This document shows positions 9,451 to 30,132 of a stretch of DNA of 30,132 bases, in pieces. Both the position numbers and the translations under genes were made by a program. Source of the stretch: a virus. The DNA is taken from IMG/VR virus record IMGVR_UViG_3300032516_007627, positions 1-30,132 of that record. One strand, given 5' to 3'. Under the pieces are notes generated by a model, which saw only the letters and a program-made list of their open reading frames with translations, was not told the DNA's origin and searched no databases. The number at the start of each line of letters is the position of its first letter. The first letter of the stretch is position 1.

Positions 9451-11427
9451 TCACATCATCGCCCGGACAAGTTCCCGGAACTGTAAAGGGAGATCCCAGT
9501 ACGCAGTTGGGCTCTGGGCATAGAGAGCAAGTGCATCGCCCTCCCAGTAACCCATAATGGCATCGTTCGCCACGGACGGATCTGGGTGGATCCAGCAAGG
9601 CCGCACCCGCTTCATGCTCACGCTGTAAAGGGCCGGGAAGATCGTGTCCACGAGCGTGTCGCGGTCCGCATCGGGAAGCAACGGGAAATTACACATGAGC
9701 ACTTCCGGCACGCCCAGCACCACAGCATCAGGATGTAGCCCCGTGAGGCTGCCGACCATGTATGGTGCCCGCCCCCGCGTCCAGTTATAGGCGAAATTGC
9801 GCGTCGTGGCGGTGTAGGGGCCAAGAAACAATTCGCTCATGCGCAAATAATCATCTGTTTGTGCCGCGTCCGTGATAGATAACCGCCAGTACTGATACGT
9901 CTGTGTTGCCGATAGATAGTAATCAATCTTGCCCGCGGCCCAGGTGATCGCCACGGGACCAAAGGCCGGAGCGCCCCAAGCATCGCTCGTATGTGCCATG
10001 AGGCTCATGATTGCCGTGCTCGTGAAATTATGATCCTGGATGATTAGCGCTTGAATAGATTGAGGGGAGAGAAAACCACAGACAATAGAAGCGCAACCCA
10101 TGTAGATCTGCCCTGTCGCAGCAGTCCCCGCCAGGACGATGCCGCTGCCGAGAGAGACGAGAGAGAACACATACGTCTGCGTACCGAGTTGTTGGATCAA
10201 CGCCCAGGTTGCGCCGCTGTCGGTGCTCCTCCAGATCTGCCCTGTCGGATACGTCCCCGCCAGGACGATGCCGCCTCCGAGAGAGGCGAGAGAGTACACC
10301 TCCGTCTGCGTGCCGAGTTGTTGGATCAACGCCCAGGTCGCGCCGCTGTCGGTGCTCTTCCAGATCTGCCCTGTCCCAGCAGTCCCCGCCAGGACGATGC
10401 CGCTGCCGAGAGAGACGAGAGAGAACACATACGTCTGCGTACCGAGCTGTTGGATCAACGCCCAGGTCGCGCCGCTGTCGGTGCTCTTCCAGATCTGCCC
10501 TGTCGGATACGTCCCCGCCAGGACGATGCCGCCTCCGAGGGAGGCGAGAGAGTACACATACGTCTGCGTACCGAGCTGTTGGATCAACGCCCAGGTCGCG
10601 CCGCTGTCGGTGCTCTTCCAGATCTGGCCTGTCGGATACGTCCCCGCCAGGACGATGCCGCTGCCGAGAGAGACGAGAGAGAACACATGCGTCTGCGTAC
10701 CGAGCTGTTGGATCAAGGTCCAGGTCGCCCCGCTGTCGGTGCTCTTCCAGACCTGCCCTGTCGCAGCAGTCCCCGCCAGGACGATGCCGCCTCCGAGAGA
10801 GGCGAGAGAGTACACCTCCGTCTGCGTACCGAGCCGTTGGATCAACGCCCAGGTTGCCCCGCTGTCGGTACTCTTCCAGATCTGCCCTGTCGTACCAGTC
10901 CCCGCCAGGACGATGCCGCTGCCGAGGGAGGCGAGAGAGAGCACATACGTCTGCGTACCGAGCCGTTGGATGAGCGAGAAAGATTCGCTTAAAAATCCAT
11001 CGCTAGACCGCCATTCTGTGTTGCGATTGCGGTCTATCAGTTTCGCCGTGCCGTATCCGAAAATGACCTTGAAATCCCAGCGGTCCCCGAGAATGAAATC
11101 CGTCCCGGTGGCCGCAGTGAAATAGACAGTGATCCCGTTGTCCAGGGTGAGTGGGTGCGCCTGCGTTGCGACCAGGGTCCCGCTGAAGGTCGAGCCTCCG
11201 TCCGAGGACCACTTAAATGTGGCCGTCCCCACATCCCCGGCAAGATCAATGATGATCAGATACGTGCGCTCGGTCGTGCCCGTATAGACGCCGCCAGGGA
11301 CACAACTCCCCGAGCCGGTCCCGTTCTTCTGCGCTTGGCTGACTTGGGCCGTGACCGTGCTGCTGGCCGTGATGACCGCCCCGGTCGTGTCGAGCTTATT
11401 GTCAAAAAGAAAGCGAATGTTGCTCAT
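9451..11427 (-). CDS. Tail-tip protein with seven Asp-box repeats, 658 aa
   Basis: The ATG at 11427 overlaps the tape measure stop (ATGA). Residues 1-151 are beta-rich and end in DRNRNTEWRSSDG. Residues 152-about 441 hold seven 43-residue repeats; six carry an Asp box (STDSGATW) and the seventh stops before it. The C-terminal 217 residues include LIIQDHNF and YQYWRLSITDA, recalling a discoidin-like sugar-binding fold. Known Asp-box proteins are beta-propellers such as sialidases and glycan-binding lectins, so seven units suggest a seven-bladed propeller. Its position after the tape measure implies a distal tail protein. No catalytic sialidase motif was seen; binding is more likely than cleavage. 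Confidence 0.75.
   Translation of the reverse strand: MSNIRFLFDNKLDTTGAVITASSTVTAQVSQAQKNGTGSGSCVPGGVYTGTTERTYLIIIDLAGDVGTATFKWSSDGGSTFSGTLVATQAHPLTLDNGITVYFTAATGTDFILGDRWDFKVIFGYGTAKLIDRNRNTEWRSSDGFLSESFSLIQRLGTQTYVLSLASLGSGIVLAGTGTTGQIWKSTDSGATWALIQRLGTQTEVYSLASLGGGIVLAGTAATGQVWKSTDSGATWTLIQQLGTQTHVFSLVSLGSGIVLAGTYPTGQIWKSTDSGATWALIQQLGTQTYVYSLASLGGGIVLAGTYPTGQIWKSTDSGATWALIQQLGTQTYVFSLVSLGSGIVLAGTAGTGQIWKSTDSGATWALIQQLGTQTEVYSLASLGGGIVLAGTYPTGQIWRSTDSGATWALIQQLGTQTYVFSLVSLGSGIVLAGTAATGQIYMGCASIVCGFLSPQSIQALIIQDHNFTSTAIMSLMAHTSDAWGAPAFGPVAITWAAGKIDYYLSATQTYQYWRLSITDAAQTDDYLRMSELFLGPYTATTRNFAYNWTRGRAPYMVGSLTGLHPDAVVLGVPEVLMCNFPLLPDADRDTLVDTIFPALYSVSMKRVRPCWIHPDPSVANDAIMGYWEGDALALYAQSPTAYWDLPLQFRELVRAMM
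10105..10974 (-). repeat. Seven tandem 129-bp coding repeats
   Basis: Units start at 10974, 10845, 10716, 10587, 10458, 10329 and 10200, each 129 bp except the shortened last. They are nearly identical at DNA level and keep the reading frame. From unit 2 on, two subtypes alternate: SLASLGGG in units 2, 4 and 6, and SLVSLGSG in units 3, 5 and 7. This points to growth by duplication of 258-bp pairs. Confidence 0.9.
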
Positions 11428-15470: not shown

Positions 15471-15881
15471 TTACGAACTGCTGGCGCGGCTCAGCGAGCC
15501 GGCCGGCGAGAAGCGGGCTGTCACCCGCATGAGTTCTCCGACGCCGCCAGCGACCGGGGAATATTCCTGCAAGATGCAGATGCCGCTGTAGGTCGGGTTG
15601 ATCGCCGTCGAACAGGTATTGTCCGGCCTCAATTCGAAGCACGCCGTGGTACCCTGAATCGCGAACAGGAGAGCGTCCACGTTGGCGGCGGCATAGTCCT
15701 GGTGGAGGACGGCCTCCAGAGACCAGTTGAACAGGCCGGCCTTACTGATCCGGTTCGAGTCCCCCATCGCCGTCTCGTCCAGCATTTCGCTTTGTCGGTT
15801 CAGCGTCACCGAGACGAGGTGATCCGAGAGATCGGTCGCATTGAGTTGGAACTTTCCATTGGTCAAAACCTTGGTGCTCAT
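15471..15881 (-). CDS. Tail tube-like protein 2, 136 aa
   Basis: GGAGG eight bases before the ATG at 15881. The sequence is beta-rich and lines up with the other tube-like protein at both ends: MST-VLTN at the start, MLD-T...NRI-KAGL in the middle (about residues 33-50), and SPVAGGVGEL near residue 110. It lies just before the chaperone genes, the standard site for the major tail tube protein, so of the two copies this is the better candidate for the main tube subunit. That choice is inference. Confidence 0.7.
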   Translation of the reverse strand: MSTKVLTNGKFQLNATDLSDHLVSVTLNRQSEMLDETAMGDSNRISKAGLFNWSLEAVLHQDYAAANVDALLFAIQGTTACFELRPDNTCSTAINPTYSGICILQEYSPVAGGVGELMRVTARFSPAGSLSRASSS

Positions 15882-15908: not shown

Positions 15909-16274
15909 TTACTGGATGCCCATCCCCATGAGACCTTTCCAGGACCCTCCCGTGGATGCGGCAGTGGACATCGTCCATGTAGCTCTGAACCATTGGCGGT
16001 CCGTACTCATCGCCACCGGTGCGGGCCAGGTCGAACCGATCTCAGACGAAAGACCGAATGTGAATGCTGTTGATAGGGTCGTGAATCCACTCGACGAGGA
16101 GTCCTGGATGGTTGCGACCAGGGTACGGCCCGTGGAACTACAGGTCAGGTGGAAAAACCCCACGAGTCTCTGCGCGGCGGTCAGCGGTCCGAGATTGTAC
16201 CCCGTGCTCACATACGATGTGGACAGGGCGTTCGTCCGAAAGTCCTTGAGCGCCGCCACTCTCACGATTGCCAT
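15909..16274 (-). CDS. Small structural protein between tube paralogues, 121 aa
   Basis: The ATG at 16274 overlaps the upstream stop (TAATG), with GGTGG just before. The protein is rich in Ser, Thr and Gly and reads as beta strands (LVGFFHLTCSSTGRTLVATI), with a Gly-rich end (GGSWKGLMGMGIQ). It is soluble and has no cysteine pattern. Its place inside the tail tube locus suggests a tail decoration or virion protein. I do not recognise a named family. Confidence 0.65.
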   Translation of the reverse strand: MAIVRVAALKDFRTNALSTSYVSTGYNLGPLTAAQRLVGFFHLTCSSTGRTLVATIQDSSSSGFTTLSTAFTFGLSSEIGSTWPAPVAMSTDRQWFRATWTMSTAASTGGSWKGLMGMGIQ

Positions 16275-16672
16275 TACACCACCCCCCGGCTTTCCGCCTC
16301 GACGGTGAATTTGAGCAACTCGCCCACGCCCCCGGCGAGCGGCGTATAGCGAGCCGCCACGGCCTTGAAGGCATATCCGCCGCCCGTGAAGACCCCCTCC
16401 GTGATTGTGTCGGGCCAGACGCTCACGACCTCATCCTCGATCCCGACATCGTTGTAGAGGACCGTCCCGACCAGACCCGAGCCGTCCTGCACGAATCCGC
16501 CGCCCGTCATGCGGATACGCGAGAGGCCGGCCTTGTAGATGCGGTTCGTCTGCCCGAAGCACGTCGCGTCCAGCATGTCAAAGGTCTCGGTCAGTGCAAT
16601 CTGGTTGAAGTCTGAGGAGAGGTTATAGCCTCCCATCACGATCTGCGCGTTGGTGAGAACTTGTGTTGACAT
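16274..16672 (-). CDS. Tail tube-like protein 1, 132 aa
   Basis: A GGGGGG stretch precedes the ATG at 16672. It is a paralogue of the 136-aa protein two genes downstream: both start MST-VLTN, share MLD-T and NRI-KAGL at about residues 33-49, and share AGGVGEL at about 113-119. The middle parts differ, so the duplication is old. One copy may form the tube and the other a terminal or decorating ring (inference). The -35 box of the HNH promoter on the other strand overlaps its first codons. Confidence 0.7.
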   Translation of the reverse strand: MSTQVLTNAQIVMGGYNLSSDFNQIALTETFDMLDATCFGQTNRIYKAGLSRIRMTGGGFVQDGSGLVGTVLYNDVGIEDEVVSVWPDTITEGVFTGGGYAFKAVAARYTPLAGGVGELLKFTVEAESRGVV

Positions 16673-18789: not shown

Positions 18790-19383
18790 TTACCCCGTCG
18801 TCACATAGTCGATCTGAAACGCACTCTGCCCAGGATTAGAGCAGGTCGTGGATACAAGCTTGATTTTCAGATCGGTGCATGCCGCAAGGCCTGCGACATC
18901 CAGCGTGCTTGCAGCCGTGCGCGTTCCCGCGACGATGCCTGTGCTCACTGGTGCGAAATCCACTGAAGCCATACTGCTTCCCACGCTACTGGCCCCGCCG
19001 AAGATCGTGAAGATATCCCCCGTTGCGTTTTCGTAGGCGGTCAGAGCGATGTGCTGAATACGCAGGATAGTAACGGGGACGAGCGGACGCCAGAGTTGAT
19101 AGGAGGAGGTCACACCACCATCAGAGGATGCCGATTCCGCAACCAGGGCGATGAGGCTCCTGGTGAGCAGATTCGTGGATGCCTTCTCACTCGTGACGTT
19201 CAAGTCGGCTATCTTTGACGTGTCCACCGACGTGTCGGCCAGCTTCGTGCTTTCCACGGATCCATCGGCGAGCTTGGCCGTGGTAACGGAACAACTCGCC
19301 AAGTCTTCGGAATCAATTTCCCGGATGCTCTTTAGGATGGGTCGTTCTTTCTGTGCCCACCAATCCCCGCGAAAGACTGGCAT
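18790..19383 (-). CDS. Neck-located fibre-like protein with KLAD repeats, 197 aa
   Basis: GGAGG four bases before the ATG at 19383. Residues about 32-68 carry roughly 10-residue repeats (VTTAKLADGS, VESTKLADTS, VDTSKIADLN), a pattern common in trimeric phage fibres. The C-terminal 120 residues are beta-rich. The place is odd for a fibre: between the connector and the stopper. It may be a neck whisker, a head fibre or a virion decoration (inference). Confidence 0.7.
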   Translation of the reverse strand: MPVFRGDWWAQKERPILKSIREIDSEDLASCSVTTAKLADGSVESTKLADTSVDTSKIADLNVTSEKASTNLLTRSLIALVAESASSDGGVTSSYQLWRPLVPVTILRIQHIALTAYENATGDIFTIFGGASSVGSSMASVDFAPVSTGIVAGTRTAASTLDVAGLAACTDLKIKLVSTTCSNPGQSAFQIDYVTTG

Positions 19384-29447: not shown

Positions 29448-29476
29448 CTTGTAGCAGATGTCGGGGGATTCGTCAA
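29448..29476 (-). promoter_or_regulatory. Possible promoter ahead of the terminase genes
   Basis: TTGACG (29471-29476), a 17-base spacer and TACAAG (29448-29453) on the minus strand, overlapping the end of the deacetylase gene. The -10 box overlaps the AAGGGAG ribosome site, so a transcript from here would lack it. That argues against a simple promoter call. Confidence 0.3.
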
Positions 29477-30132
29477 CGGTCAACCCTCCGGATGAGTTCA
29501 AACGCCTCCGCATACTCGCACCCGCACACCGACCCCCAGCGGCGGGCAATCGCGCGGAGAACTTCGGGCGACCGCGGGTGTGGGGCAGGGCGCGTCTCCC
29601 CGGCGTAGCACTGCAAGGCCCGGACCTTGGCCTCGATGGTGTCTGTCACGTCCACGAACACGTTAGGGCGAAAGCCGTTGCCCAGGCCGAATGCCCACTC
29701 CGTGCTACTGGGAACCTCGAAAGCGTAGAGTTCCCGCACGCGGCAACCGGGCATCGGGCGGGTGGCCGTCAAGACAGCCTCGAACAGGCGGCGGTGATCG
29801 ATATTGAGACACGCGGGATGGTGCGTGTAGATCACCTCCGGGCTGAAATGCCGGATCTCCATTTCGACAACCTGGACGATTGACAGGAGGGGCACCGTGT
29901 CAAAGCGATTGTCCGGCAGATTATGGAAACTGACCTTGGCCCCCAGGATCCTCGCCACCTCCTCGGCCTGCTCCCGCAACTCCTCGACGTACTGGGCCTC
30001 GTCTGGCCGGCTGGTGCCCCCCTGCCCGAAAATCACGATCTGGACGGAATGGTCCCTCGCCAATTTGGCAATCGTGGCTCCGCATCCGAGGCACTCATCA
30101 TCCGGGTGGGCGGCGCAGACGAGGATGTTCAC
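29473..30132 (-). CDS. PIG-L/LmbE-family deacetylase, 219 aa (start at window edge)
   Basis: The frame begins with GTG at the last base of the window, giving MNILVCAAHPDDE; a more distant start cannot be excluded but the N-terminus looks complete. The zinc site is AHPDDE (residues 8-13) plus THHPACLNIDH (103-113) with His104/105, Asp112 and His113. Known members remove acetyl groups from GlcNAc-type sugars (GlcNAc-PI, mycothiol and bacillithiol precursors). The substrate here is unknown. It lies 40 bases upstream of the terminase genes on the same strand. Confidence 0.88.
   Translation of the reverse strand: MNILVCAAHPDDECLGCGATIAKLARDHSVQIVIFGQGGTSRPDEAQYVEELREQAEEVARILGAKVSFHNLPDNRFDTVPLLSIVQVVEMEIRHFSPEVIYTHHPACLNIDHRRLFEAVLTATRPMPGCRVRELYAFEVPSSTEWAFGLGNGFRPNVFVDVTDTIEAKVRALQCYAGETRPAPHPRSPEVLRAIARRWGSVCGCEYAEAFELIRRVDR

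Follow-up and report, generated by a model that had tools for sequence, protein, structure and literature searches.

The arrangement closest to the one reported here is the "evolved Dit" of lactococcal skunaviruses, in which a binding module (a CBM) is inserted internally, the flanks align with shorter insert-free homologues, and the inserts have been shown to drive adsorption (PMC10688798). Asp-box (BNR) propellers, among them sortilin/Vps10, GH74 enzymes, sialidases, and Ycf48, are built from four-stranded blades with an SxDxGxTW box between strands C and D, and seven is one of their known blade numbers (PMC2716378). Propellers with near-identical blades, such as WRAP, have been described as recently amplified in a set that includes viruses, and amplification of a two-blade unit was reported only once (Pereira and Lupas, PMC9218822); the designed 7big is comparable. 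Finally, phage receptor-binding propellers include phi11 Gp45 (five blades), PRD1 P2, and PhiKZ gp131C (seven blades) (PMC4901313).

The locus described here lies in a 30,132-base IMG/VR virus record, analyzed over its full length and hereafter called the window. As in the evolved Dit, a candidate binding module sits inside a protein whose flanks align with shorter insert-free homologues, and the gene directly follows the tape-measure gene, an order also found in the insert-free relative L002. The core, however, is a discoidin-like tail protein (phrog_8610) that is likened to Dit here for its arrangement, and the insert is a predicted seven-bladed propeller of near-identical blades rather than a CBM. 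No Dit homology was found by sequence, and a profile of the core protein (A2) retrieved no solved relative from the PDB, an absence that does not exclude homology. The box and its predicted place between strands C and D of four-stranded blades are those of Asp-box propellers, but unlike sortilin/Vps10, GH74 enzymes, sialidases, and Ycf48, the window protein has blades that are 79–96% identical at the protein level, has no enzyme motif that we could see, and carries its propeller within a different domain of a phage tail protein. Near-identical blades and recent amplification are shared with the Pereira and Lupas propellers; the window differs from those cases in its partial two-unit signal with recombination, its setting in a phage tail protein, and its ring of seven. 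A place at the host-facing end of the virion (presumed here) would be common to the phage receptor-binding propellers, as would closure by an N-terminal strand, which is described for the phi11 ring; near-identical Asp-box repeats and insertion into a discoidin-like domain are not described for phi11 Gp45, PRD1 P2, or PhiKZ gp131C in the available part of that report. A further parallel is VmeM32_00157 of Vibrio phage vB_VmeM-32 (annotated as similar to outer capsid protein), which has tandem Asp-box units in two sets of seven, the last unit of each set without a proper box, and the same variable positions as the window units, but its carrier is unrelated and belongs to a T4-like myovirus, and its units are more diverged (pS 0.59).

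The array was detected with TRF at window positions 10104–10971 (129-bp period, 6.7 copies, 90% matches, zero indels, score 1386), and the second and last TRF array in the window scores just 53. It is in frame with a 658-aa ORF on the minus strand (P0001, 9451–11427), which bears out the in-frame 129-bp repeat array of the first-pass annotation. Unit comparison placed the starts of the 43-residue units at residues 156, 199, 242, 285, 328, 371, and 414, and inter-unit identity is 87–99% at the DNA level. All units lie on the minus strand: unit 1 (residues 156–198) at 10834–10962, unit 2 at 10705–10833, unit 3 at 10576–10704, unit 4 at 10447–10575, unit 5 at 10318–10446, and unit 6, the final Asp-box-bearing unit, at 10189–10317. 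The truncated unit 7 (residues 414–444, 10096–10188) holds strands A, B, and C of the predicted closing blade and no Asp-box. Seven STDSGATW boxes had been claimed; we counted six, at residues 186, 229, 272, 315, 358, and 401 (spacing 43 residues), because unit 7 breaks off at GQIYMG, ahead of its box. Just upstream of the array, the sequence SFSLIQ (residues 150–155, 10963–10980, minus strand) is predicted to form the closing (Velcro) strand, and the final 12 nt of its coding sequence are similar to the repeat unit. Long ORFs (up to 328 aa) on the plus strand also overlap the array at 10051–11125, a mechanical effect of a period divisible by 3.

The minus strand of the window encodes terminase, portal, protease, capsid, connector, tail-tube, and tape-measure genes. 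The 658-aa ORF begins at the end of the gene for the 1124-aa tape-measure protein directly upstream (P0002, 11424–14798; PHROGs tape-measure match, E 2.1e-12), as the first gene past it, which upholds the earlier assignment as a tail protein; a location at the tail tip is presumed. The two genes that follow on the same strand encode proteins of 170 aa (P0004, 8937–9449), for which L002 has the same gene order and which would be hub-like by position, and 433 aa (P0003, 7718–9019), by position the counterpart of a 398-aa gene in L002. Outside the propeller, residues 434–553 of the 658-aa protein match phrog_8610, a family of unknown function, with E 1.1e-6, and insert-free L002 matches it with E 2.3e-24.

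Alignments with relatives divide the remainder of the protein into an N-terminal beta domain (residues about 1–125, 11053–11427) common to insert-free relatives and modelled with pLDDT 82–90 over residues 30–120; a first piece of the discoidin-like domain (about residues 126–142, ...AKLIDRNRNTEWRSS, 11002–11052), from the alignment with L002 and L004–L034; a second piece (residues 447–536, 9820–10089), from comparison with L002 and with pLDDT about 80–90 over most of its length; and a C-terminal tail-protein domain (residues 537–658, 9454–9819), also common to insert-free relatives. All lie on the minus strand, and the C-terminal part is 34% identical to that of L002. In 11 distinct insert-free relatives (L002, L004, L005, L006, L007, L011, L017, L018, L021, L028, and L034) the aligned sequence is continuous at the propeller site (YRS-AALESPN-TITVDLG), and this alignment shows the propeller splitting a putative discoidin-like domain. 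The Pfam F5/8 type C family matches L002 and L007 across the insertion point with E 0.001–0.002, under the Pfam cut-off, and the label "discoidin-like" is therefore a lead and not a family assignment; the window protein itself has no F5/8 type C Pfam match. A mixed alignment (A6) was dropped, as its propeller rows spread across the whole protein.

Other members of the family carry other inserts. In L014 and L015 the gene is split at the insertion point of the propeller into an N-terminal ORF, a 175-aa ORF, and a C-terminal ORF, the family profile matching the two flanking pieces separately (positions 1–148 and 139–360); the 175-aa ORF (MADKKISALTASSA...) reads by eye as tail-fibre-like and has no family match in Pfam or PHROGs. 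A laminin-G domain (E 1.7e-15) sits in L062 between profile positions 176 and 198, a loop that is not the one holding the propeller; L062 comes from a genome of the same phylum as an Acidobacteriaceae genome, and its gene follows an apparent tape-measure end. Near that laminin-G loop, L084 has an insert of about 165 residues with an unassigned domain. A third insertion place is seen in L032 (3995–5257), with about 60–70 extra residues in the N-terminal domain. In L050 an Asp-box propeller protein stands directly after the tape measure and its C-terminal part resembles, by eye, that of the window family; the L050 record gave no match to the family profile. The first-pass annotation had overlooked that the propeller is an insert splitting another domain, in a family with repeated uptake of inserts. 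Since distant relatives carry other modules in it, the tail protein resembles a socket into which different host-binding parts can be fitted. Among INPHARED cultured phages there is no close match to the window protein, the nearest insert-free relative being a Synechococcus phage MinM1 protein annotated as hypothetical; insert-bearing members all come from uncultured phages or bacterial genomes. A wider search of Bacteroidota genomes returned weak matches only, all of insert-free length.

The repeat region was modelled with AlphaFold2 from an alignment (A9) in which the window repeats were matched, one blade to another, with six distant phage propeller segments. The model (pLDDT 88.9, pTM 0.88) has 28 strands in the order of one D strand (residues 150–155, strand 11–16 of the modelled region), six A-B-C-D sets, and the A-B-C strands of unit 7, with the Asp-boxes in predicted C–D turns. 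The array is predicted to encode a closed seven-bladed Asp-box propeller, and the structure prediction for which the first-pass annotation had called thus agrees with the fold that it proposed. The 28 strands are exactly what the ring requires: the strand just upstream of the array becomes the outer D strand of blade 7 and completes that blade, which leaves no need for a box in unit 7. The model is not independent of seven-bladed relatives, because those sat in its alignment, and a full-length model with no propeller relatives in the alignment gave the repeats pLDDT 30–50; a PDB search with that full-length model was discarded as meaningless. Foldseek placed Ycf48 as the top match of the propeller model, and the designed seven-bladed 7big was among near-tied solved structural matches (Z 33.0, rmsd 2.1 over 278 residues). 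Searched against the PDB, the A9 profile matched GH74 xyloglucanases (E 5e-33), sortilin (5e-19), Ycf48, and, more weakly, sialidases, and the Pfam Sortilin-Vps10 family matches the window protein on its own (E 8.4e-9).

Six boxes and a boxless closing seventh unit were also counted by eye in translations of six other phage propellers, namely three in L042, one in L050, and the two sets of vB_VmeM-32, whose protein (L038:1885–3969) has 14 Asp-box units and, by count, two rings of seven; L043 is similar, its seventh unit being less clear. Because this pattern recurs in unrelated phage propellers, seven blades look fixed, and in the model the array makes up exactly one ring. The freely changing blade number that had been envisaged for this array is not supported by these results. 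No close relatives bearing the repeats were found in viral contigs or cultured phages. In L042 (395–7211), two adjacent ORFs hold the three propellers, with long Ser-rich stretches between them.

Identity is 93% between units separated by an even number of steps and 89% between those separated by an odd number, and of the 35 possible 3-versus-4 splits the even/odd grouping ranks first (P = 0.029). The alternation of two subtypes is real, and both it and duplication by pairs, as first proposed, are supported. The four-gamete test fails for 15 of the 28 pairs formed by informative sites, and the units have therefore probably recombined (or repeated mutation acted), in line with the exchange among units suggested at the outset. 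A synonymous versus nonsynonymous comparison, also suggested then, gave an overall pN/pS among units of 0.60, with nonsynonymous changes concentrated at unit positions 5, 7, 22, and 23 (pN 0.45, pS 0; remaining positions, pN 0.028, pS 0.136). These four codons, which were chosen after the data were seen, hold 11 of 17 nonsynonymous changes (17 being a minimum from a hand count; P about 0.001 under a uniform null). By the secondary structure of the model, they map to the D–A and B–C loops, on the face opposite the Asp-boxes, and they are also among the most variable positions in the unrelated 14-unit vB_VmeM-32 protein. The whole D–A and B–C loops vary at an estimated rate that is about neutral (synonymous), and because of this and of the post hoc choice of positions, relaxed constraint explains the variable positions equally well; positive selection on these codons was dropped as a claim on the same grounds. 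The variation fits a diversifying binding face and permissive loops alike.

We put at roughly 65% the probability that a whole seven-bladed propeller, inserted in a discoidin-like loop and amplified and shuffled by recombination between units, serves as a host-adhesion module similar to the evolved Dit. The propeller would have entered, whole and as a closed ring, a loop of the discoidin-like domain in the tail protein encoded directly after the tape-measure gene, and would act as an accessory tail-tip adhesin whose target is a receptor on the host surface, such as a glycan. Its blades may have grown in number through in-frame tandem duplication, partly in pairs, and may have exchanged sequence after amplification. 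The blade framework would stay constant while residues facing away from the Asp-boxes vary between blades, and recombination between blades would reshuffle the binding face with the blade count staying at seven. We infer host adhesion at the tail tip from the gene position, the adhesin-type inserts of relatives, and the analogy with Dit inserts and phage propellers; receptor binding by the propeller and selection on its variable face are likewise presumptive, as are the glycan-binding face and the effect on host range that were first proposed.

A rather unlikely alternative, though the strongest of those considered, is that the propeller has a structural or decorative role in the tail (as a spacer, a stabilizer, or a dock for other proteins) and binds no host, the blade differences being neutral drift in loops. 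Loops are a natural site of neutral change, and the near-synonymous rate estimated for them here agrees with this; proteins annotated as outer capsid proteins also contain Asp-box propellers, and propellers often dock proteins, Ycf48 being among the matches. The inserts in relatives, however, are of adhesin types (a laminin-G lectin-type domain and a tail-fibre-like ORF), and the known phage propellers include likely receptor-binding members (PMC4901313).

It is very improbable that the propeller is instead a depolymerase, similar to sialidases or GH74 enzymes, that cuts host surface glycans. GH74 xyloglucanases are the nearest of its solved sequence relatives, with sialidases more distant, but GH74 enzymes are two-propeller proteins and a single propeller is found here. 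The blades are near-identical, with acidic residues limited to the Asp of the Asp-box and a Glu at position 5 of units 2 and 6. As for GH33 sialidase features, a reading of the sequence found no Arg-Ile-Pro (RIP) motif in the window protein, and Arg occurs in the units only in IQR (units 1–2) and WRS (unit 6). Least credible of all is that the copy number is an artefact of units collapsed or expanded in metagenome assembly: the source is an IMG/VR virus record and such arrays assemble badly (PMC9218822), but the longest exact repeat within the 658-aa gene is 73 nt, the array therefore being resolvable by reads or k-mers longer than 73 nt, the reading frame is intact, the array and upstream strand make exactly one closed ring in the model, unit 7 stops at the same place as the last, boxless unit in other propellers, and the assembled copy number is plausible.

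Host adhesion by the inserted propeller, our preferred reading, would extend the evolved Dit idea to a further family of tail proteins, one in which the inserts are of several kinds. A bolder version, which we regard as possible but doubtful, is that members of the discoidin-like family serve in general as sockets for exchangeable host-binding modules, the socket being occupied here by a self-diversifying ring that strand closure locks at seven blades; recombination among the near-identical blades would then reassort, on one face, the four variable residues of each blade and so change receptor binding. Ring closure predicts a fixed blade number with changing blade surfaces, making this propeller a test system for the evolution of near-identical propellers.

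A search for tRNA genes across the window found none. Two tail-tube-like genes from separate PHROG families lie at 15471–15881 and 16274–16672, and an ORF at 15909–16274 matches the second part of the PHROG family of the latter, as if a tail protein were split over two genes. Tail-fibre-like sequence (SVESTKLADTSVDTSKIADL...) occurs at 18790–19383 amid head-tail connector genes, and a PIG-L type de-N-acetylase (E 5.7e-23) is encoded at 29473–30132, at the end of the record.
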